Shown here one piece after another: positions 12,207-51,802 of a stretch of DNA of 64,000 nt. The position numbers and the translations under genes are program-made. Under the pieces are notes generated by a model that was not told the origin of the DNA, did not search any database, and saw only the letters and a program-made list of their open reading frames with translations. This stretch comes from Halobacillus yeomjeoni (lineage in GTDB: Bacteria; Bacillota; Bacilli; Bacillales; Halobacillaceae): the NCBI RefSeq assembly GCF_020171525.1, contig NZ_JAIVAI010000004.1:62001-126000 (forward strand), in the 5' to 3' direction. Position 1 is the stretch's first letter, and the number at the start of each line of letters is the position of its first letter.

Positions 12207-13484
12207 CTATTCTTTCCTTTTCGAAGAGGCTCTTATATTCATGGATTCTCTATATTTTGCCACCGTTCTCCTTGATATGGTAACAGGGTGAATTTCCTTG
12301 ATTTTATTGACGATCTGTTGATCAGAAAGTGGATTGCCCTTATCTTCACCCTCAATCAAACGCTTTATCATTTGTTTCACTTCACTGGAAGAGATGGGAA
12401 CATCCCTCCCATTCTTTAATCCTGGTGTGAAAAATGCTTTCAAATCATAAGTCCCTCTTGGAGTTTGTATAACTTTATGAGCAACTGCCCGACTTACTGT
12501 AGACTCATGTACCCCAATCATTTCGCCCACTTGTTTATAATTCATAGGAACCAGGTGGTTTCCATAAAAGAATGAAGATTGCTTATAGAGTATAGCTTCG
12601 ACCACTTGGATAATTGTTGCTCTCCTTTGTTCGATACTATTCATTAACCAACGAGCTTCCTTGTAACAATCTTCTATGAAACTTTTCGCATCAGAGTTTA
12701 TATCCGTAAGAGATGCAAGCTGTGAATTTAGGTTTATTAGAGGAGTTAAGGAATTTGTGTCTTTCAGAAAAAACTCTCCCCCCTTCTCTTCAACGATGAT
12801 ATCCGGAATCAAATAGTCTACAAATCGGTTTCCTTCATCGACCTTTGGTTGAGGGTTTAAGTTTTTCAAGAGCGAAAAGGCTGCTTTCACTTCTTCCTCA
12901 CTGACATTCAGATTTTGAGCAATAAACTTCCATTTCCGATCAGACGCCTCTTCAAGATAATCGGACACTAGCTTATGTAGTATATAATTGGAAGGATAGT
13001 CATTTTCAATTTGATAGAGTAAGTACTCCCTCATATTAAAACAGCCAAGTCCCATAGATTCATATACTTTAAGTTTGGTTATCTGTTTCTCTATCTCTGA
13101 ACGGGTAGACGACATAGATGCAGCGATTTCTTCAATGGTAAGTGGGAGAAATCCTTTCTCATCCAGATTTAATATTAGATACTCCATGATTTGAAAAGGT
13201 TTTATGTTTTCTTCATTCCACTTGAAATAATCAATTATTTTTTCCCTCCACCCTTGTTCGCTCTCTACAAAGATACCAGCAGGGTTAAACATAGGCCTGG
13301 TTCGCGAAGGTGTCCCGTTGATCCCCCTTGGATTTTCAATGGAAATAAGAGGGTTTTCCAATGACTTTTCTTCTATAAATTCTATAAGTTGAGCTTGAGA
13401 ATACTGCAGAATTGTGACCGCCTGACGCATTTCTGTAGACATATATAGTTTTGTCGTTTGATTTTGAGTTAATTGAAGCTTCAT
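12207..13484 (-). CDS. rpoN: RNA polymerase sigma-54 factor (SigL)
   Basis: Sigma-54 directs RNA polymerase to -24/-12 promoters that need an AAA+ enhancer-binding activator. About 425 residues. Region I, glutamine-rich, is LQLTQNQTTKLYMSTEMRQA at the N-terminus. The core-binding region follows, then a helix-turn-helix (MIGVHESTVSRAVAHKVIQ, about 320-340). The RpoN box near the C-terminus reads ISRRTVAKYRE, close to the classical ARRTVAKYRE. The frame extends to 13520, but GGGAGGAAG eight bases before the ATG at 13484 sets the start. A matching promoter and activator are found in this same window at 47401-49047. Called sigL in B. subtilis. Confidence 0.96.
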   Translation of the reverse strand: MKLQLTQNQTTKLYMSTEMRQAVTILQYSQAQLIEFIEEKSLENPLISIENPRGINGTPSRTRPMFNPAGIFVESEQGWREKIIDYFKWNEENIKPFQIMEYLILNLDEKGFLPLTIEEIAASMSSTRSEIEKQITKLKVYESMGLGCFNMREYLLYQIENDYPSNYILHKLVSDYLEEASDRKWKFIAQNLNVSEEEVKAAFSLLKNLNPQPKVDEGNRFVDYLIPDIIVEEKGGEFFLKDTNSLTPLINLNSQLASLTDINSDAKSFIEDCYKEARWLMNSIEQRRATIIQVVEAILYKQSSFFYGNHLVPMNYKQVGEMIGVHESTVSRAVAHKVIQTPRGTYDLKAFFTPGLKNGRDVPISSSEVKQMIKRLIEGEDKGNPLSDQQIVNKIKEIHPVTISRRTVAKYRESMNIRASSKRKE

Positions 13485-42683: not shown

Positions 42684-43967
42684 TTAAAGAATTCCGATGG
42701 TGTTCAGTAAAATGACGACAGCAACAGAGATGACTGGAATCAATACAGCAACGACGAAAATTTCTTTATAACTGTCTTTATGAGTCATCCCGGTGATTGC
42801 AAACAGGGTTAAAACCGCCCCGTTGTGCGGAAGTGCATCAAGTCCACCCGATGATAGAGAAGCGATACGGTGGAAAGCCTCTGGACTGATTCCTGTATTC
42901 ATTGCGATCTCATAATACTTCGATCCCAGCGCTTCAAGGGCGATCCCCATCCCTCCTGATGCTGATCCTGTGGCTCCTGCCAGGACGTTGACGGCTATTG
43001 CTTCTGAAATGAGCGGGTTTCCTTTTACACCCATCAACAGTTCGGTTAGGCGTTCAAAACCTGGGACTTCACGGACGACGGTACCGAAACCGACGGCAGC
43101 ACTCGTATTGATGATAGCAATTACGGATCCACTGGCCCCTTTATTCATAGACGGGATGAATTTTTTAAACAAGTGGACATTCAAAAGCATGATCAATACG
43201 ATACCTGAAATTAAAGAAGTGACAATATCCCAATCAAACACGTTCAATGTCACCAAAACCGTTAACAGCGGCAAAACGGATAGGAAAAAATTCGGCATGT
43301 GTTCTGCTTCTTCAACGACTTTTCCCCCTTTTGGCTCGACGAAAGTATCTCCTTGTTCCGTTAGTTTCTTCTCACGATACCTAAGATAAAGATAACCTCC
43401 GACAGCCATAACGATAGCTGCGATCACTCCCATTACAGGGGCTGCAGTTGCAGAGGTTTGAAAATACTCCATTGGAATCAGGTTCTGTATTTGTGGAGAC
43501 CCTGGTAAAGCGGTCATCGTAAACGTAAACGCTCCGAGGGCTACAGTTGCTGGTATTAGTTTTCTGCTGATATCAGCTTCCCTGAATAAGGATAAAGCTA
43601 AAGGGTAAACGGCGAATACAACGACGAAAAGACTGACGCCTCCATATGTAAGTACAGCTGAAGAAACAAGCACACCGAGAATAGCGCGTTTTGTCCCGAT
43701 CACCTTTGTCAGTGCGAGCGCGACGGAACGAGCCATGCCTGTGTTCTCCATCAACTTACCAAAAATCGCACCCAGCATGAAAACAGGGAACCAGGCTTTT
43801 GCAAAGTCTACAAACCCTCCCATGTAGGTATCTTTATATGCCTCAAGCAAATCGAGGCCGCCCGTTAAGGCGACGACTCCGGCAGCAATCGGTGCCACCC
43901 ATATGATGGACCACCCGAGGTATGCCAGAGCCATCAAAACGACAAGACCGAGTAATATTCCGAACAT
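42684..43967 (-). CDS. GntP-family permease, probable 3-hydroxybutyrate/acetoacetate importer
   Basis: 427 residues with about 12 membrane segments, from LLGLVVLMALAYLGWSIIW to the C-terminal VLIPVISVAVVILLNTIGIL. It is a gluconate-permease (GntP) superfamily member like YxjC of B. subtilis, which also sits with scoAB. Family motifs include GGVSLFVVVFAVYPLALSL, ALPGSPQIQN and LSSGGLDALPHNGAVLTL. Position as last gene of the scoA-scoB-bdh-thiolase operon points to uptake of 3-hydroxybutyrate or acetoacetate rather than gluconate. RBS AGGAGG; 28 bases after the thiolase stop. Confidence 0.85.
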   Translation of the reverse strand: MFGILLGLVVLMALAYLGWSIIWVAPIAAGVVALTGGLDLLEAYKDTYMGGFVDFAKAWFPVFMLGAIFGKLMENTGMARSVALALTKVIGTKRAILGVLVSSAVLTYGGVSLFVVVFAVYPLALSLFREADISRKLIPATVALGAFTFTMTALPGSPQIQNLIPMEYFQTSATAAPVMGVIAAIVMAVGGYLYLRYREKKLTEQGDTFVEPKGGKVVEEAEHMPNFFLSVLPLLTVLVTLNVFDWDIVTSLISGIVLIMLLNVHLFKKFIPSMNKGASGSVIAIINTSAAVGFGTVVREVPGFERLTELLMGVKGNPLISEAIAVNVLAGATGSASGGMGIALEALGSKYYEIAMNTGISPEAFHRIASLSSGGLDALPHNGAVLTLFAITGMTHKDSYKEIFVVAVLIPVISVAVVILLNTIGIL

Positions 43968-43995
43968 AGTTTTTTCCTCCTAATTGATGAATGTT

Positions 43996-45174
43996 CTAAG
44001 CAGCTTTAACGACCATGGCAATTCCTTGACCGCCGCCAATGCAAAGTGAAACGACGCCGTATTTCTTATTTCTCCGCTTCAGTTCTTTCACCAGTGTATA
44101 CAGCACTCTTGTTCCGCTTGCTCCTATCGGATGACCAAGTGCGATGGCTCCACCATTGACATTGGTTTTTTCCCTCGGAAGATCAAGCTCTTTTTCTACA
44201 GCCAGATACTGTGAAGCAAATGCTTCGTTCACTTCAATCAGGTCCATATCATCAAGGGTAAGTTCCGCTTTCTTTAAAGCTTCACGAATCGCATCGGCAG
44301 GACCTATACCCATATAATTAGGGTCGACTCCTACGACAGACCAGGAAACGACCTCCGCTAAAGGATCAGATTCATTTTCCTTAACAAACTGTTCACTGGC
44401 AAGAACGACTGCTCCAGCGCCGTCATTGATCCCACTGGCATTTCCTCCTGTAACGGTTCCATCTTTCCGGAAGGCCGGTTTTAAATTGGCCAGCTTTTCA
44501 GTTGTCGTGTCTTTACGAATGTGTTCATCGCGATCGATGCTGATTGACCCTTTACGAGACTTCACTTCTACAGGAACGATCTCTTCGCTCATGATCCCGT
44601 CTCGAACCGCCTTCGCTGCACGTTGGTGGCTCAACGATGCATATTCATCCTGTTCTTCTCTAGTAATCTCATATTTCTCAGCCAGGTTTTCCCCTGTCGC
44701 TCCCATCCCTTCACCGATGTACTCATCAGTCAGAGCAGCCCAAAGCATATCTTCCACTTTAGGAGAAGATAACTTCGTGCCGAAACGACTGCCTCTCATG
44801 GCATGAGGGGCCATGCTCATACTCTCTGTACCTCCAGCCAATGCCACATGTCCTTCCCCCAAGAGAATAGACTGGGCAGAAGAAACTACAGATTGGAGTC
44901 CTGAACCACAGAGACGGTTCAAAGTTAAAGATGGACTGCTTGTCGGAATTCCTGATTTCAATGCGATATGTCTTGCAATATAAGGAGCATTGGAAGAAGA
45001 GTGAATCACATTGCCCATAACGCTGAAATCAATTTGTTCAGGTGTAAGACCACTTCGTTTTACTGCTTCCTTACTTGCGGTCACGCCAAGTGTAGTCGGG
45101 TCTACATCTTTCAGAGAACCTCCAAATGTACCGAAAGGGGTACGTGCCCCTTCTAATATGTAAACAGAATTCAT
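43996..45174 (-). CDS. Acetyl-CoA C-acetyltransferase (thiolase)
   Basis: Cleaves acetoacetyl-CoA with CoA to two acetyl-CoA. 392 residues, typical. Cysteine nucleophile (about residue 87) in LNRLCGSGLQSV, His in ALGHPIGASGTR (about 349), second Cys in SLCIGGGQGIA (about 380). The frame runs to 45222, overlapping the stop of the dehydrogenase gene; AAAGGA with nine-base spacing favours ATG 45174. In the operon it completes the path 3-hydroxybutyrate, acetoacetate, acetoacetyl-CoA, acetyl-CoA. Confidence 0.94.
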   Translation of the reverse strand: MNSVYILEGARTPFGTFGGSLKDVDPTTLGVTASKEAVKRSGLTPEQIDFSVMGNVIHSSSNAPYIARHIALKSGIPTSSPSLTLNRLCGSGLQSVVSSAQSILLGEGHVALAGGTESMSMAPHAMRGSRFGTKLSSPKVEDMLWAALTDEYIGEGMGATGENLAEKYEITREEQDEYASLSHQRAAKAVRDGIMSEEIVPVEVKSRKGSISIDRDEHIRKDTTTEKLANLKPAFRKDGTVTGGNASGINDGAGAVVLASEQFVKENESDPLAEVVSWSVVGVDPNYMGIGPADAIREALKKAELTLDDMDLIEVNEAFASQYLAVEKELDLPREKTNVNGGAIALGHPIGASGTRVLYTLVKELKRRNKKYGVVSLCIGGGQGIAMVVKAA

Positions 45175-45196
45175 TATCATCTTTCCTTTCGTAAAG

Positions 45197-45973
45197 TTAT
45201 TGTGTTGTGTAGCCTCCATCAATCACGACCGCCTGCCCTGTGATTCCTTTAGCTTGATCACTCGCTAAAAACAATGTGTAGTCAGCGATTTCCTGAACAG
45301 ATAGCAGACGTTTTTGAGGTACCAGTGGGTAAATGACTTCTTCCAATGCTTTTTCTAAAGAAACTCCTCTGTTTTGTGCAAGGTCTTCCAATTGATTCCT
45401 GACCAATGGCGTATCGACATAACCAGGGCAGACCGCGTTGACTGTAATCCCATCTTCCGCCCCTTCCAGCGCAGAAACTTTCGTCAAACCAATGACACCA
45501 TGTTTAGCGCTGTTATAAGCAGATTTACCTGCGAATCCAATCAAACCATTAATGGATGCCATATTGATGATTCTTCCAAAACCCTGCTTTTTCATAATCG
45601 GGAAAGCATGCTTTGTAGCCATGAAAGGAGCGATGAGCATTACTTTTGTCATAAGCTCGAATTTTTCAGTCGGGAATTCTTCAAGGGAGGCGACATGTTG
45701 CAGCCCCGCATTGTTGACCAATACGTCCAGTCTGCCGTACTTTTCCACCGTTTGATCGATCGCTTCCTGCAGCTGACTTTCATCCGTCACATCACATGTC
45801 AAACCAATACATTTATAACCTTCATCTTTCAACATCTCTGCTGCTTCGTTCACTTTGTCTTCATTGATATCACTCAAAGCGACTTTCGCTCCTTGACGAG
45901 CGAACTCCAACCCGATTTCAAATCCAATTCCGCTCGCTGCTCCTGTAATGAATACAACTTTGTTTTCTACCAT
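45197..45973 (-). CDS. 3-hydroxybutyrate dehydrogenase
   Basis: Short-chain dehydrogenase interconverting (R)-3-hydroxybutyrate and acetoacetate with NAD. 258 residues. TGAASGIGFEIG nucleotide motif at the N-terminus, NNAGLQHVASLEEFP, catalytic Ser in NMASINGLIG and Tyr-Lys in SAYNSAKHGVIG; the segment VCPGYVDTPLVRNQLEDLA is characteristic of bacterial 3-hydroxybutyrate dehydrogenases and of YxjF. RBS AGGAGG. Lies 11 bases after scoB. Confidence 0.92.
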   Translation of the reverse strand: MVENKVVFITGAASGIGFEIGLEFARQGAKVALSDINEDKVNEAAEMLKDEGYKCIGLTCDVTDESQLQEAIDQTVEKYGRLDVLVNNAGLQHVASLEEFPTEKFELMTKVMLIAPFMATKHAFPIMKKQGFGRIINMASINGLIGFAGKSAYNSAKHGVIGLTKVSALEGAEDGITVNAVCPGYVDTPLVRNQLEDLAQNRGVSLEKALEEVIYPLVPQKRLLSVQEIADYTLFLASDQAKGITGQAVVIDGGYTTQ

Positions 45974-45984
45974 TTTTCTGCCTC

Positions 45985-46659
45985 CTAGTTTGATTGTTGT
46001 AATAAACGATCACTCACGACCAATTCCGCTTCTGTCGATTCGACCACTTCTTCAACTGTCCACCCTTCTAACACATCAACTAACACTAGTCCTTTCGGTT
46101 CTACGTCAATAACTGCGCGGTCTGTAATGATGCGGTCAACGACACCTTGTCCCGTTAAAGGTAGGCGGCACTCTTTCAATATCTTCGGATCTCCATGCTT
46201 ATTCACATGATCCATGATGATCACGACCTTTTTTGCTCCATGGACAATATCCATGGCTCCGCCCATACCTTTGATCATTTTTCCGGGGATCATCCAATTC
46301 GCTAAATCACCATTTTGTGCGCCTTCCATCCCACCTAAAATAGCAAGGTCCAAATGTTCCCCCCGCACCATCGCAAATGATTCAGCACTGCTGCAGTAAG
46401 CCGCACCTTTTGAGGCAGTTACGGTTTCTTTCCCGGCATTGATCAAATCTGGGTCCACTTCAGATTCATAAGGGGAACGCCCAATTCCTAAAAGACCATT
46501 TTCTGATTGTAAAACCACTTGTTTATCATCCTGAATATAATTGGCGACCATCGTCGGCATTCCGATTCCAAGGTTTACGTAGTAACCGCTTTCAATTTCC
46601 TGTTCAGCTCTTTTTGCAATTTTTTCTCTTACTGTCGCTTTGTCTAAGTTTGCTGCCAT
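45985..46659 (-). CDS. scoB: 3-oxoacid (succinyl-CoA:acetoacetate) CoA-transferase subunit B
   Basis: Catalytic subunit of the CoA-transferase that activates acetoacetate. 224 residues. The covalent-intermediate Glu53 lies in the family motif QSENGLLGIG; the oxyanion region GIGMPTMVANYI precedes it. Downstream family blocks are LGGMEGAQNGDLANWMIPG and HGDPKILKECRLPLTG. AGGAGG precedes the ATG; 16 bases after scoA. Heterodimer with the ScoA product. Confidence 0.95.
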   Translation of the reverse strand: MAANLDKATVREKIAKRAEQEIESGYYVNLGIGMPTMVANYIQDDKQVVLQSENGLLGIGRSPYESEVDPDLINAGKETVTASKGAAYCSSAESFAMVRGEHLDLAILGGMEGAQNGDLANWMIPGKMIKGMGGAMDIVHGAKKVVIIMDHVNKHGDPKILKECRLPLTGQGVVDRIITDRAVIDVEPKGLVLVDVLEGWTVEEVVESTEAELVVSDRLLQQSN

Positions 46660-46675
46660 TTTTATCTGCCTCCTA

Positions 46676-47371
46676 TTATGCTTGTTTTTTTATCGTCAGC
46701 CGTTCGATTCGCTTTTCCTGATTCCCTTCAACCAGCCCCTGCACGTAAATTCCAGGAGTATGGATACGATCCGGGTCCATCTCTCCAATGTCTACAAGAT
46801 TTTCTACTTCTGCAATCGTCACTTCACCTGCCGTGGCGATTTCCGGGTTGAAGTTTCTTGCTGTCTTATTGTAGATGAGATTTCCAGCATGATCTCCGTA
46901 CTCAGCTCTTACAAGACTGAAGTCAGCTTTCAGACCCGTCTGTAACAAGTAATCTTTTCCGTTAAAAGTCCTTACTTCTTTTCCCTCAGCTATCGGAGTT
47001 CCGACACCAGCCGGCGAATAAAAGGCAGGTATACCAGCACCACCGGCACGGATGCGTTCCGCCAGTGTACCTTGAGGAGTGAGCTCTACTTCCAATTCCC
47101 CAGCCAGCACCTGGCGCTCAAACTCTTTGTTTTCACCGACATACGAACCTATCATTTTATCAATCTGCTTGTTTTTCAAAAGTAACCCGAGTCCCCAGTC
47201 ATCAACCCCGCAGTTGTTGGAAATGACCGTCAGATGCTTCACTTCGGATTCTACTAATGCCAAAATCAAATTCTCGGGGATTCCGACCAAACCGAATCCA
47301 CCCACCATAATCGTTGAATGATCTTTAATATCTTTCACAGCTTCCTGAAAAGTGGAATATATTGTTTTCAT
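46676..47371 (-). CDS. scoA: 3-oxoacid CoA-transferase subunit A
   Basis: Alpha subunit of succinyl-CoA:3-ketoacid CoA-transferase. 231 residues. Family motifs: [14 protein letters not shown] near the N-terminus (the GGFG signature), [15 protein letters not shown], and [16 protein letters not shown] (about 120-135). The frame can be extended to a GTG at 47389 but GGAAGGAG lies inside that extension, so ATG 47371 is the start. First gene of the operon, about 19 bases from the transcription start predicted from the sigma-54 promoter. Confidence 0.95.
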
Positions 47372-47400
47372 TGTCCACACTCCTTCCACTTATCTATATA

Positions 47401-47417
47401 CGCAAGAAGTGTGCCAA
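47401..47417 (-). promoter_or_regulatory. Sigma-54 (-24/-12) promoter of the sco operon
   Basis: Minus strand TTGGCACACTTCTTGCG. It carries the invariant GG and GC elements with the correct ten bases between them and matches YTGGCACGNNNNTTGCW at nearly all positions. Predicted start about 47390, just before the scoA ribosome-binding site. Confidence 0.93.
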
Positions 47418-47456
47418 CTTGAAAAGTGCATGGAATCAAGAGATTAATATTCGCTT

Positions 47457-47472
47457 TTTCAGAAATCTGGAA
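47457..47472 (-). promoter_or_regulatory. Candidate enhancer site UAS3
   Basis: TTCCAGATTTCTGAAA (minus strand), a 16-bp palindrome with one end mismatch, related to the two sites further upstream. Centre about 75 bases before the predicted start. Confidence 0.55.
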
Positions 47473-47525
47473 TAAAGAATCCAACCCTTATTGAGAACCC
47501 TTTCATTTAAAGTAAAAAAGAACCA

Positions 47526-47541
47526 TTCCAGAAATCCGGAA
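47526..47541 (-). promoter_or_regulatory. Candidate enhancer site UAS2
   Basis: TTCCGGATTTCTGGAA (minus strand), a 16-bp palindrome with one mismatched pair. Centre about 144 bases before the predicted start, 20 bases (two helical turns) from UAS1. Confidence 0.7.
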
Positions 47542-47545
47542 TGGT

Positions 47546-47561
47546 TTCCGAATTTCTGGAA
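47546..47561 (-). promoter_or_regulatory. Candidate enhancer site UAS1
   Basis: TTCCAGAAATTCGGAA (minus strand), the outermost of three related palindromes, ending four bases from the stop codon of the activator gene. Together UAS1 and UAS2 also form a larger inverted repeat, which could serve as a terminator-like hairpin for the activator mRNA. Confidence 0.7.
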
Positions 47562-47565
47562 TGGT

Positions 47566-49047
47566 TTATAGACCATACTTTTTAACTTTATCGTATATAC
47601 TGGATTTTCCAATTCCCAGCCGTTCTGCGGCCAGGGATTTGTCTCCTTCCGTCATTTCTAAAACTTCCTCTATGAAATTTTTCTCTGTATTTTCCATCAT
47701 TTCTTTTAAACTGAAAGCTTTATTGTTATCTCTCGTTCTTGGTTTGAAGTGCTGCGGTAAATCATCAAGGGTGATTTTTTGGCCGTCAGATAAATGGACC
47801 GCTGATTCAATAACGTTTTCAAGCTCTCGAATATTTCCCGGCCATGAGTAATTTTCTAATACATCCTGAACTTCAGCGCTAACCTTTCCTATACGTTTCC
47901 CTATTCGCTGACTCGTTTTTTCCAAGAAATATATCGTAAGAACCCTTATGTCTTCAATTCTTTCACGTAAAGGTGGAACCTCTACTTGTAGAACGTTGAT
48001 GCGATAATATAAATCCTCTCGAAATAGATTTTTTTCAATCAATTTTTCTAAAGGTTGGTTGGTAGCTGCAATGATTCGTACATCCACTTTCTGTGATTGG
48101 ACGGACCCAAGAGCCTCTACTTCTCCCTCCTGAATTGTCCGTAGTATTTTCACCTGTGCGTGCATGGGCATATCGCCTATTTCGTCTAAAAAAAGCGTTC
48201 CCCCATCAGCCAGCTGAAATTTACCAGGCTTACCGCCTTTCTTCGCTCCAGTAAAGGCCCCATCAAGGTAACCAAAAAGTTCGGATTCAATCAGGTGCTC
48301 TGGGATCGCTGCACAGTTCACTTTTACAAATGGCTGGTCACTACGATCACTCAATTGGTGAATACTGTGAGCGAAAAGTTCTTTCCCTGTTCCACTTTCG
48401 CCTCTGATTAAGACAGGGATATCGGCATGGGCGATTTTTTTAATTTTATCTTTCACATCATGTATTTCTTCTGAACTACTGACAATATCATGGAGGGAAT
48501 AACGGGCACCCGTTCGGCTGCTTGACCGATTACGGTAGGTTTCAAGTTCAAACAGCAGATCCTTGATGTGTGTATTCATGATTTCCCATTCTTCTGTATC
48601 ACGAAATAACACCATCCCAAGAGCACCTACAACTTGTCCATCTGAACGTAAGGGAATACGGTTCGCAATCATATACTGACCTCTAATATGCTGCAAGTCT
48701 GCCATTTCTTCCTTACCAGACTCTACTACAAGATGCATCCTGGTATTCTCTATAACTTCCGTCACATGCCTTCCGATGATTTCTTCTTTACCCACATCTA
48801 AAAACTGAATATAGCTCTCGTTCATATAAGAGATGTTTCCTTGATGATCGACAATGACAATACAGTGATCGACATTTCCAAAAAACGTTTCAAAAATACT
48901 ATCACGGTAATTCTCCAGTACAGTTATCAAACTATTCACCCCTGCAACCCATGGTAACGTTTTCATTGAATTAATTAGAATTCTATCACTGTAAATGGAA
49001 TGAAACCACCTCAGGTCGACATCCCCCTTTAATTCCTGCATGCTCAT
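47566..49047 (-). CDS. Sigma-54-dependent activator of the ketone-body operon
   Basis: Enhancer-binding protein of 493 residues in the RocR/AcoR/BkdR mould. PAS sensory domain (about 50-150), AAA+ domain with Walker A GESGTGKE (216-223), the sigma-54-contacting GAFTGA (263-268), Walker B GGTLFLDEIGD (282-292) and arginine-finger region, then a Fis-type helix-turn-helix (MTEGDKSLAAERLGIGKSSI, about 465-484). Start uncertain: ATG 49047 and an internal ATG at residue 28 both lack a clear ribosome-binding site. It lies just upstream of the sco operon on the same strand, with three palindromes and a -24/-12 promoter between. Activators of 3-hydroxybutyrate clusters have been reported in Bacillus (HbcR, from memory). 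Confidence 0.92.
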   Translation of the reverse strand: MSMQELKGDVDLRWFHSIYSDRILINSMKTLPWVAGVNSLITVLENYRDSIFETFFGNVDHCIVIVDHQGNISYMNESYIQFLDVGKEEIIGRHVTEVIENTRMHLVVESGKEEMADLQHIRGQYMIANRIPLRSDGQVVGALGMVLFRDTEEWEIMNTHIKDLLFELETYRNRSSSRTGARYSLHDIVSSSEEIHDVKDKIKKIAHADIPVLIRGESGTGKELFAHSIHQLSDRSDQPFVKVNCAAIPEHLIESELFGYLDGAFTGAKKGGKPGKFQLADGGTLFLDEIGDMPMHAQVKILRTIQEGEVEALGSVQSQKVDVRIIAATNQPLEKLIEKNLFREDLYYRINVLQVEVPPLRERIEDIRVLTIYFLEKTSQRIGKRIGKVSAEVQDVLENYSWPGNIRELENVIESAVHLSDGQKITLDDLPQHFKPRTRDNNKAFSLKEMMENTEKNFIEEVLEMTEGDKSLAAERLGIGKSSIYDKVKKYGL

Positions 49048-49338: not shown

Positions 49339-51189
49339 ATGGGACAAACATCAAAGCTCCAAAATAAAGATAAGCAGGCGAAGTGGTTCATATTGATTGT
49401 TTCCCTTGTCGGTTGGAGTACCATCGGTGGATTGGCTTTCCAAATAGACCGACCGGATAACATAGCTGTCTTCTTACTGCTCGTTTTATTTATGGGAATT
49501 ACGGAATACTATCCGATCGCCATTTGGAAAGGTTACACTTCTCTCAGTTTTCCACTTCTCTATACCATGTACATCGTGGATGGGCTGCCTTTGGCGGTCA
49601 CCGCTTACGCTTTGATCATGGTGATTGTGAACATCGTTCAACGACGTCCTTTACGAATCATTCTTTTCAATCCATCCCAACTGACTTTGAGTTTGATTGC
49701 AGCTGTATTTGTCGCTGATTGGTTTCAATCCACGTTCAACTTATTAGAAACAGGTTCCTTCCTTTTCATCATTTTCGTAACCTTGCTTTATTATTTCTTC
49801 AATAACCTCTTTGTCGATTTAGTTCTTTTGATTCGTCCTCAGCCATACACGTTTACCATATGGAAGACGAAAGTAATGACAGAAGTGGTCAGTGCTTTGA
49901 TATCCATTACATACATAGGGATTATGTTTTATATGGGCAGTCAAAACCGCGGGGTCATTGATGTATTCACCTATTTCTTCTTCTTCTCGCCATTGGTCGG
50001 TTTCGCACTTTTGAGTTCAATTATTGTACGCCTCCATATGGAAAGAAACCGAATTAAAGCTTTGTTTGCCATTTCTACAGAATTGAACAGACGGATTCCC
50101 ACGAAAGACTGGGTTCAATCCATAGAAGAGAACTTGAATGATATTGTGGATGTCGATGCCAGCATCTTATGGGTGAAAGAAGAAGGAAAATGGAAAGCGC
50201 GTTTCCACTATGGACAAGTGGATCCAAATAAAAAGCTCACTCCTGATTCTGTTGCAGCCTTCGAGAAAATTGAAGATGTCGTAAGTTTCCAGAATGGAAG
50301 ACGGAGCGATGTGCCTGTTCCGAAGAGCTTTCACAAAGCTTTGAAAGCTTTCATATTTGCTCCGATCATATTAGAAGGTAAATCTCTCGGCATGTTCGTT
50401 GTGGCAAGAAGCCGGACTCATAGCTTCAGAGAAGATGATGTCCAGTCTGTAGCAACTTTAGCCAACCAATTGGCGATTGCTATTAAGACGAGAATGCTGA
50501 TCTCCGAGCAGGAAAAGCGAACGGTCTTGGAAGAACGCAATAGAATTGCGAGAGAAATCCATGACGGAGTAGCGCAATCACTAGCTGGTGCTGTATTGAA
50601 GCTTGAAACAGCCAATCGTAAATTTCATCAAAAGCCGCAAGAATCCCAGAACATCATAATGGATAGTCTGGATAAACTGCGTTTCAGTTTAAAAGAAATC
50701 CGGGAGTCCATATATGCCTTACGCCCCTATGAAACTGAAAGGGTAGGTTTGAAGCAGGCCATCGTCAAAAGGATTGAGGTCATTCAAAAAGAAACAGAAT
50801 TGGAACTTACTTTTGAAGAGCGTGGAAAACCGATTGCGCTAAGCCCAATGGTAGAAAAAGTCATGTTTGATATTTTTCAGGAAAGTGTCCAAAACACAAT
50901 CAAACATGCAGGCGCGTCTCAAATTCACGTACTTCTCAGTTATCAAAAAGAACATGTGTTACTGAAAATCACGGATAATGGAGTAGGTTTTTCATTACTG
51001 GGGGCTATGGTGAAAGCGAAGAAAGATCCACACTTCGGGATATTGAGCATGAATGAACAAGCAGAGAAAATAGAGGCATCGCTTCAAATCAATAGTGAGG
51101 AAAACGAAGGCACTGAAATTGTCCTTACTATACCGAAGCTCGGCTTTGAAGGAGGTATGGAACATGATCAACGTCATGCTAGTGGATGA
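49339..51189 (+). CDS. NarL-type sensor histidine kinase with polytopic membrane domain
   Basis: 616 residues. The first 230 or so hold about seven hydrophobic segments (WFILIVSLVGWSTIGGLAF to FFFFSPLVGFALLSSIIV), a membrane sensor of unknown ligand. A GAF-like domain follows (about 240-395), then HisKA_3 with phospho-acceptor His408 in REIHDGVAQSLAG, and an HATPase with QESVQNTIKHAG (N box) and ITDNGVGFSL (G1). This is the DegS/LiaS/NarX class. AGGAGG precedes the ATG. The response-regulator gene overlaps its 3' end by 26 bases. The stimulus cannot be read from sequence. Confidence 0.92.
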   Translation: MGQTSKLQNKDKQAKWFILIVSLVGWSTIGGLAFQIDRPDNIAVFLLLVLFMGITEYYPIAIWKGYTSLSFPLLYTMYIVDGLPLAVTAYALIMVIVNIVQRRPLRIILFNPSQLTLSLIAAVFVADWFQSTFNLLETGSFLFIIFVTLLYYFFNNLFVDLVLLIRPQPYTFTIWKTKVMTEVVSALISITYIGIMFYMGSQNRGVIDVFTYFFFFSPLVGFALLSSIIVRLHMERNRIKALFAISTELNRRIPTKDWVQSIEENLNDIVDVDASILWVKEEGKWKARFHYGQVDPNKKLTPDSVAAFEKIEDVVSFQNGRRSDVPVPKSFHKALKAFIFAPIILEGKSLGMFVVARSRTHSFREDDVQSVATLANQLAIAIKTRMLISEQEKRTVLEERNRIAREIHDGVAQSLAGAVLKLETANRKFHQKPQESQNIIMDSLDKLRFSLKEIRESIYALRPYETERVGLKQAIVKRIEVIQKETELELTFEERGKPIALSPMVEKVMFDIFQESVQNTIKHAGASQIHVLLSYQKEHVLLKITDNGVGFSLLGAMVKAKKDPHFGILSMNEQAEKIEASLQINSEENEGTEIVLTIPKLGFEGGMEHDQRHASG

Positions 51190-51802
51190 TCATGCTGTAT
51201 TAAGAGATGGATTGAAAAACATCATTGAAACAGAAGAAGATATCCATGTTGTTGGAGAAGCGGTAAATGGACAACAATTCATGGAACTTCTCCCTGAATG
51301 TGAGCCTGATGTCGTTTTGATGGATATTAATATTCCGGACAAAAACGGGATTGAGCTGACAGGTATGCTGAAGAAAAATCATCCAGATATCAAAGTTCTG
51401 GTTTTGACGATGCACAGCCATGATGAGTACTTTATGGCTGCAATTCGTGAAGGGGCGGATGGCTACCTACTTAAAGACCTCCCCTCCGACCAGGTCGTAG
51501 AAGCGATTCGGACGGTAGCTAAAGGAGAATCGATCATCGACCCTTCGATGACTAAAAAGCTTCTCGGTTTTTATAACCAGAAAGAAGAATCCTCTCAGCA
51601 GTCCGAACTGACAGAAAGAGAAAAGGAAGTTTTAATCTGCCTTGTCAGTGGAATGAGTAATAAGGAAATCGGTGAAAAGTTGTATATCAGCGATAAAACC
51701 GTAAAGATCCATGTCAGTAAAATATACAAGAAGTTGAATGTTAAAAGCCGCTCGCAGGCAATCATTCACGCAGTACAAAACCAGCTGGTGCCACTTCCAT
51801 AA
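51164..51802 (+). CDS. NarL/FixJ response regulator
   Basis: 213 residues: receiver domain with phospho-acceptor Asp54 in VVLMDINIPDKNG and conserved Asp residues in MLVDDHAV, then a LuxR-type helix-turn-helix (LTEREKEVLICLVSGMSNKE...ISDKTVKIHVSKIYKKL, about 150-205). The frame opens at 51095 inside the kinase gene, but GAAGGAGG before ATG 51164 sets the start. Translationally coupled partner of the kinase. Target genes unknown; a strong terminator separates it from the subtilase gene downstream. Confidence 0.94.
   Translation: MINVMLVDDHAVLRDGLKNIIETEEDIHVVGEAVNGQQFMELLPECEPDVVLMDINIPDKNGIELTGMLKKNHPDIKVLVLTMHSHDEYFMAAIREGADGYLLKDLPSDQVVEAIRTVAKGESIIDPSMTKKLLGFYNQKEESSQQSELTEREKEVLICLVSGMSNKEIGEKLYISDKTVKIHVSKIYKKLNVKSRSQAIIHAVQNQLVPLP

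Follow-up and report, generated by a model that had tools for sequence, protein, structure and literature searches.

A 64,000-nucleotide stretch of the Halobacillus yeomjeoni genome (contig NZ_JAIVAI010000004.1, positions 62,001 to 126,000; hereafter the window) carries a ketone-body operon on its minus strand (42684-47389), transcribed in the order scoA, scoB, hbd (3-hydroxybutyrate dehydrogenase), thiolase and GntP-family permease, with the gene of a sigma-54 activator directly upstream. We propose that the adjacent activator very likely places this operon under sigma-54 control. Taken as a whole, the locus is, we believe with good confidence, best explained as a substrate-inducible operon for the catabolism of 3-hydroxybutyrate and acetoacetate, in which the sigma-54 activator would act from three operators and a terminator hairpin would form part of the control region. 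Sigma-54 wiring of ketone-body genes is already known in kind and, to judge from the genomes compared here, is widespread in the order. What is new is the cis-architecture, above all an apparent covarying enhancer-terminator; the operators, their overlap with the hairpin and a cre-like site were all absent from the preliminary description of this DNA.

Activator, promoter and operators across relatives

The activator gene (47566-49047, minus strand) encodes a PAS domain, an AAA+ domain (Sigma54_activat) with a GAFTGA loop and a Fis-type helix-turn-helix (HTH_8). PF00158 and PF02954 both score over their cut-offs, the GAFTGA loop can be read in the sequence, and there is no receiver domain. Because ortholog matches begin mostly at query residues 27-52, the start should probably be moved to TTG 48930. 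Identity with PrdR was considered and rejected, NF041552 reaching 439 bits against a cut-off of 795. Sigma-54 itself is encoded inside the window by sigL (12207-13484, minus strand), where a Sigma54_DBD match falls at the same place; the preliminary description was right about this gene.

The spacer of about 180 bp between the activator and the scoA reading frame contains a -24/-12 promoter of the form GG-N10-GC, TTGGCACACTTCTTGCG (47401-47417, minus strand), with a predicted transcription start near 47390; its sequence and place had been reported correctly. Simple counts of the motif speak against it: the window has 7 promoter-like motifs at up to two mismatches against 9.9 expected in shuffles, and the genome has 60 at up to one mismatch against 52 for a reversed-pattern control. 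This is chance level in window and genome alike, and the motif was discarded as stand-alone evidence. On the sequences compared, the significance of the promoter comes from its place and its conservation, not from the motif.

The activator was searched for in 101 genomes, namely the source genome and 100 relatives. Besides the window's own there are 55 orthologs, scoring at least 535 bits with 54-73% identity, and the next match reaches no more than 446 bits and belongs to the paralogs; a copy in G008 that is split between two frames (L245) was left out of the 55. SigL is present in 95 of the 101 genomes, and none of the six genomes without it has an activator ortholog. In the activator tree, the 23 orthologs sampled from the 56 form a clade with a support of 0.997. 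All 55 ortholog loci were fetched together with five paralog loci, and the window and the 55 make up the 56 loci discussed below. The hbd gene lies on the fetched stretch of 49 of the 55 orthologs, scoA, scoB and hbd together on 37, and all five genes in the window's order on 31 (the L175 stretch is cut by a contig end). A promoter with at most one mismatch and no more than 500 bases from the activator stop is found in 53 of the 56 loci; within these limits it was not found in L184, L212 and L213. The comparison of activator, promoter and gene order across relatives, proposed earlier as a check, shows genes, operators and promoter to be jointly conserved, and the wiring recurs through the order.

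Between the activator stop and the promoter are three palindromes with the pattern TTCC-N8-GGAA, all on the minus strand and all conserved across loci: UAS1, TTCCAGAAATTCGGAA (47546-47561); UAS2, TTCCGGATTTCTGGAA (47526-47541); and UAS3, TTCCAGATTTCTGAAA (47457-47472), which is one half-site base off. A fuller version of the pattern has exactly two perfect matches in the source genome, both at the operon. When a site is defined by at least 7 of 8 half-site bases, the 53 promoter-bearing loci hold 153 sites against 2.5 expected from mononucleotide shuffles, and 47 of the 53 hold three or more. Promoter and palindromes together were found in none of the five paralog loci, of which L230 and L231 have the promoter. 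We suggest that the activator would bind all three palindromes, of which UAS1 and UAS2, 20 bp from each other, come immediately after the activator's stop codon and UAS3 lies some 40 bp upstream of the -24/-12 box, and that, as in known families, the bound protein would drive SigL-RNA polymerase to form the open complex at 47401-47417. In 51 of the 53 loci a third operator stands apart from the others, and its distance to the promoter, measured start to start, is 54-57, 65-68, 77-80 or 97-99 bp, in steps near the helical repeat. The 14 distinct distances give a vector length of 0.71 at 10.5 bp (p ~0.0008 against uniform integers). Loci with these quantised spacings are natural variants in which the helical phasing of a nearby sigma-54 operator can be studied.

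Loci in which activator and operon have parted ways serve as natural experiments. In G037 and G041 the activator is elsewhere in the genome, and the hbd-gntP operons (L237, L238) retain the palindromes and the promoter; in G043 (L184) both stand before scoA, 5.5 kb from the activator. As a control, hbd copies at E up to 1e-60 were taken from the same 101 genomes. Among these, 32 have no activator match on their stretch, and before them the promoter (within 450 bp of the operon) and the combination of promoter and palindromes were each found in 0 of 32; in one of them (L250) the gntP gene preceding hbd contains a motif with one mismatch, and several have single 7-of-8 palindromes. Where hbd operons stand beside a more distant activator (43-49%), the promoter is present in 6 of 6 and two or more palindromes, each matching 7 or 8 of the 8 bases, in 5 of 6, even with the activator behind the operon; perfect palindromes occur in 4 of 6. 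Six genomes of the window's own family have no activator ortholog (hand-read from listings); five of them have no hbd either, and the sixth, G003, has an hbd at 67% that lacks promoter and palindromes.

Some of these results are weaker than the bare counts imply. Most loci are closely related, so the counts are not independent; the helical test uses a uniform null, and its counts likewise ignore shared ancestry; and one of the distant-activator loci, L239, has the promoter and no palindrome. Control by the operon's own adjacent sigma-54 activator, as claimed in the preliminary description, is nevertheless strongly supported by the conservation, the relocated loci and the hbd control, although the interpretation overall is best called partly supported.

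Genes of the same types as in the window form the yxjC-scoAB-yxjF group in B. subtilis (permease, scoA, scoB and a hydroxybutyrate-type dehydrogenase), and we know of no sigma-54 activator for them. According to a listing in PMC3097244, all four genes (yxjC, yxjF, scoA, scoB) belong to the SigE group, and two of them, scoA and yxjC, to the CcpA group as well. This bears out the earlier statement that the B. subtilis genes are controlled differently. The occurrence of genes of the same names in the SigE group, together with the insignificance of the -24/-12 motif alone, could also be taken to mean that the window's operon is made in sporulation from a SigE promoter, as in B. subtilis, and that the motif is fortuitous. 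We consider this very improbable, because promoter and operators occupy a constant place in 53 of 56 loci, accompany the operon even where the activator gene is not beside it and are missing before all 32 hbd copies that have no activator nearby, and because the terminator-like hairpin described below would limit read-through from upstream. The sigma-54 wiring therefore differs from B. subtilis, as had been claimed; it is not unusual as such, since it recurs through the order and follows the same logic as HbcR/RpoN in Pseudomonas.

Three minor observations concern the same elements. The broken activator ortholog of L245 stands beside an operon that still has its palindromes and promoter, and the thiolase gene there is also in two pieces. 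Second hbd copies (65-66%) in L253, L267, L268, L271-L274 and L276 lack a sigma-54 motif and have one 7-of-8 palindrome, some 54 bp ahead of hbd; such palindromes are perhaps the site of another regulator. The orthologs of L216, L219 and L224 have GIGNS or GLGIS replacing GIGKS in the recognition helix, and some of the operators start with ATCC, not TTCC, while some orthologs with ISKS in the helix have operators that start with GTCC. A specificity code linking the recognition helix to the outer operator base is possible, as a lead from few lineages.

The distal operators as a hairpin

UAS1 and UAS2 together form an intrinsic-terminator-like hairpin with a T-run (47514-47566, minus strand). 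The stem (47566-47521) has 21 pairs and starts at the last base of the activator stop codon, CTTTTTT follows it, and the folding energy (dG) is -32.4, with a z of -10.9 against mononucleotide shuffles. In the interval 47300-47700 this hairpin is the only terminator-like site, in two overlapping versions, where 0.2 are expected. The operator pair is present in 48 of the 53 loci, with a median dG of -24 and a median z of -7 against shuffles of the same kind, and at least six T in seven positions follow just behind the pair in 45 of the 48; such runs occur at 291 of 3589 other positions of the same regions (8%).

Covariation was scored for the 31 loci (30 distinct) with a 20-bp operator spacing, the other 17 of the 48 being excluded for a different spacing. 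Compensatory changes occur at 13 of the 21 stem pairs (8.3 in shuffles, with 1 of 500 as high) and in 51 cells (16.7 in shuffles, with 0 of 500 as high), and the stem covariation score is 0.257 against 0.105 (again 0 of 500); shifting the partner strand lowers every measure. As separate palindromes, UAS1 and UAS2 show no covariation excess (7 cells against 6.4). Moreover, UAS1 and UAS2 pair better within than across genomes, both in their cores (5.54 against 4.77 of 8) and in their flanks (4.90 against 4.08 of 6), and pairings that involve UAS3 differ less (4.70 against 4.46; 5.21 against 4.96). The within-genome pairing and the covariation suggest that the pairing of UAS1 with UAS2 is maintained beyond what protein binding needs.

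We hypothesize that the distal enhancer is probably an intrinsic terminator as well, one that shields the operon. In other words, the hairpin formed by UAS1 and UAS2 would keep upstream transcription, normally that of the activator gene, out of the operon, and this insulation would leave the operon dependent on sigma-54 alone. That a single element of 50 bp serves two ends, recruitment of the activator and insulation of the operon, its operators keeping TTCC-N8-GGAA as well as the mutual complementarity of cores and flanks together with the T-run, is a reading that we somewhat favor.

Several features of the data pull the other way. The inner core of the stem is its weakest part, two inner pairs forming in only 16 of 30 sequences, and related sequences can exceed covariation shuffles even without structure. 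In L237, L238 and L184, where the activator is not directly upstream, the hairpin is still found beside the operon; it was not seen behind the activators of L212 and L213, and L208 and L209 have no T-run. The view of the hairpin as simply the terminator of the activator gene was modified on the grounds of where the hairpin is kept and where it is missing in these relocated and L212/L213 loci. An open frame does lie on the same strand upstream of the operon in L237, L238 and L184 (stop-to-stop frames, not proven genes), and this, with the persistence of the hairpin beside the operon, fits an operon insulator better. For L240, L241 and L243, where the activator gene follows the operon, an absence of the T-run had been suspected; a loose T test finds one in 3 of 3, and the idea was abandoned.

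Pairing between two copies of a palindromic operator comes automatically, and quasi-palindrome repair can mimic compensatory change. The hairpin might accordingly reflect quasi-palindrome correction (homogenization of an inverted repeat), or be a DNA cruciform used by the activator, without being a terminator, and its retention where the activator is not directly upstream would suit either. We think this rather unlikely, given that the flanks outside the operators also pair and covary, that the T-run accompanies the pair in 45 of 48 loci and such runs occur at 8% of other positions, and that the same-strand frame upstream in the three relocated loci would also need terminating.

If the overlap of enhancer and terminator is true, it is a compact dual-function element, and it would offer a clean system for studying how one piece of DNA serves both a polymerase that is terminating and an AAA+ activator bound at its enhancer. 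Transcripts of the activator gene would then stop at the very enhancer that the protein uses, and activator synthesis could thereby become coupled to the occupancy of the enhancer. In the open-access literature we found no paper on an enhancer that is also a terminator, and by eye no such overlap of operators and hairpin was seen at the two other activator-target pairs of the source genome.

The likely inducer and related systems

Because no other gene is linked as often as hbd (49 of 55 stretches), 3-hydroxybutyrate appears to be the likeliest signal, and L207-L209, which of the gene set hold only the activator, hbd and the permease, point the same way. The PAS domain of the activator would sense 3-hydroxybutyrate or a close metabolite. 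There are exceptions that this proposal must accommodate: 6 of the 55 ortholog stretches have no hbd near the activator, and the activators of L216, L219 and L228 precede genes for an acyl-CoA synthetase and a sodium-solute-type symporter (named by eye from sequence), with an enoyl-CoA hydratase between the two in L216 and L219. These loci imply that the inducer may not be strictly 3-hydroxybutyrate. The activator could instead sense a broader class of signals (butyrate, crotonate, acyl-CoA or the nitrogen or energy state) with the sigma-54 mechanism unchanged, and Table 1 of PMC6615313, in which clostridial sigma-54 activators are assigned to butyrate synthesis, agrees with this as well. We nonetheless find a broader signal doubtful, since hbd is the most frequent partner, since the set is reduced to activator, hbd and permease in L207-L209, and since Pseudomonas HbcR is described as responding to (R)-3-hydroxybutyrate (PMC10482368). 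The activators with atypical partners may also have diverged: G069 has two copies, L219 before the acyl-CoA synthetase, enoyl-CoA hydratase and symporter genes and L221 before gntP-hbd, which likely arose by duplication and retargeting.

The closest functional parallel is HbcR (PA2005 / PFLU2630), which is reported to work with RpoN in the catabolism of (R)-3-hydroxybutyrate in Pseudomonas (PMC10482368, PMC8694187), to be activated by this compound (PMC10482368) and to be a sigma-54 activator with a PAS domain (PMC8694187); the primary 2015 paper is cited in PMC10482368, PMC8694187 and PMC13390443. The window likewise combines an activator of PAS type with a neighboring hbd and a GntP-type carrier gene, both of which follow a sigma-54 promoter. 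Our comparison was made with two Pseudomonas loci that are HbcR-like by context (L015, L020), not with PA2005 itself. In both, activator, gntP and hbd stand in a row, L015 also has scoA, scoB and thiolase, and a GG-N10-GC motif, 2 and 3 mismatches from the consensus, precedes gntP. Their activators share 38-40% identity with the window's, which is their best match among the three of the source genome (one direction only); the gene order differs, and the tree places the Pseudomonas proteins with a weak support of 0.38. Within 300 bases of the activator stop, neither locus has TTCC-N8-GGAA at 7 of 8 bases; by eye, GTCTCT-N4-AGAGAC-like repeats occupy the spacers in its place. Because the operator sequence differs in L015 and L020, we do not file the window's activator as a member of HbcR, and say only that the wiring would work like HbcR/RpoN. 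Ketone-body control of the HbcR kind, known from Pseudomonas, now reaches many families in one order of relatives of Bacillus, and the operator, the regulon boundary and the likely inducer are now directly testable.

Sigma-54 control of acetoacetate catabolism, as proposed for the window operon, also has a counterpart in E. coli, where AtoC is a two-component response regulator with a receiver domain. The window activator has a PAS domain and no receiver domain, and NF008469 scores 323 bits against a cut-off of 714, so that AtoC-like two-component control was rejected. The E. coli system, AtoSC-atoDAEB, is treated in PMC4428206 and PMC3162934. Among the Firmicutes, the reconstruction in PMC6615313 includes the clostridial AhcR (atoE-hbd-cotX), which by its description resembles our case in being a sigma-54 activator predicted for a C4-acid operon and differs in its assignment to butyrate/butanol synthesis in Clostridium, and PMC12316311, in a bulk prediction of sigma-54 targets for Clostridia and Bacilli, already includes CoA-transferase COGs that it calls 'essential for ketone body utilization'. 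The sigma-54 regulon of Bt HD73 comprises GabR, RocR, PrdR, KamR, SoxR, AcoR, BkdR and LevR (PMC4428206) and resembles the window's system in promoter class, in the PAS domain of 6 of the 8 activators and in activators that adjoin their targets. No 3-hydroxybutyrate or scoAB operon was found in the regulon passages of that paper, nor words beginning scoA, oxoacid or butyrate in its main text. We found no paper on this activator in Bacillus relatives in the open-access literature.

Operon genes and neighboring features

Between UAS2 and UAS3 lies a cre-like element, TGAAAGGGTTCTCA (47492-47505, minus strand), which CcpA may bind. Scored against what we take to be the cre consensus, a site with at most one mismatch and no more than 150 bp from the promoter is present in 46 of 53 loci against 1.05 expected, and in 30 loci it sits between UAS2 and UAS3. 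The center reads GG instead of CG in the window and in most loci of the same family, which makes CcpA binding uncertain; in other families a better cre often follows the start of the promoter motif by 25-70 bp. The pattern suggests that CcpA may repress the operon on good carbon sources.

The positions and strand of the genes, all on the minus strand, had been given correctly, and family models bear out the five identities that make up the proposed set from 3-hydroxybutyrate or acetoacetate to acetyl-CoA. Subunit A of 3-oxoacid CoA-transferase is encoded by scoA (46676-47389; TIGR02429 over cut-off), whose start should probably be moved to ATG 47371, behind GGAAGGAG, and subunit B by scoB (45985-46659; TIGR02428 over cut-off). 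The hbd product (45197-45973) is a 3-hydroxybutyrate dehydrogenase of the SDR family, with 408 bits for PRK12429 (cut-off 258) and 369 for TIGR01963 (cut-off 307), and its top-scoring solved structures carry the same name. The acetyl-CoA C-acyltransferase, or thiolase (43996-45222), scores 479 bits with TIGR01930 (cut-off 241), and its true start is likely an ATG near 45174. The permease (42684-43967) is over the cut-off for PF02447 and far below that of the gluconate model TIGR00791, and therefore is a GntP-like protein and probably not a gluconate symporter; linked to hbd in relatives, it is a probable carrier of 3-hydroxybutyrate or acetoacetate. By analogy with known families, the permease would import the substrate, the dehydrogenase would oxidize 3-hydroxybutyrate to acetoacetate, ScoAB would convert acetoacetate to acetoacetyl-CoA, and the thiolase would yield acetyl-CoA.

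Beside the activator is a divergent sensor kinase/response-regulator pair (49339-51802). The kinase was not found on the 55 ortholog stretches, and the pair is probably unrelated to the operon. More distant activators in L007, L008, L230 and L231 lie between a thiolase gene and CoA-transferase-like and gntP genes, a related and differently organized set of clostridia and other families. The source genome's other two sigma-54 activators (L234, G000:C1:391734-393198; L235, G000:C1:954286-955652) each have a -24/-12 motif just downstream, which in L235 starts about 6 bp past the stop codon.

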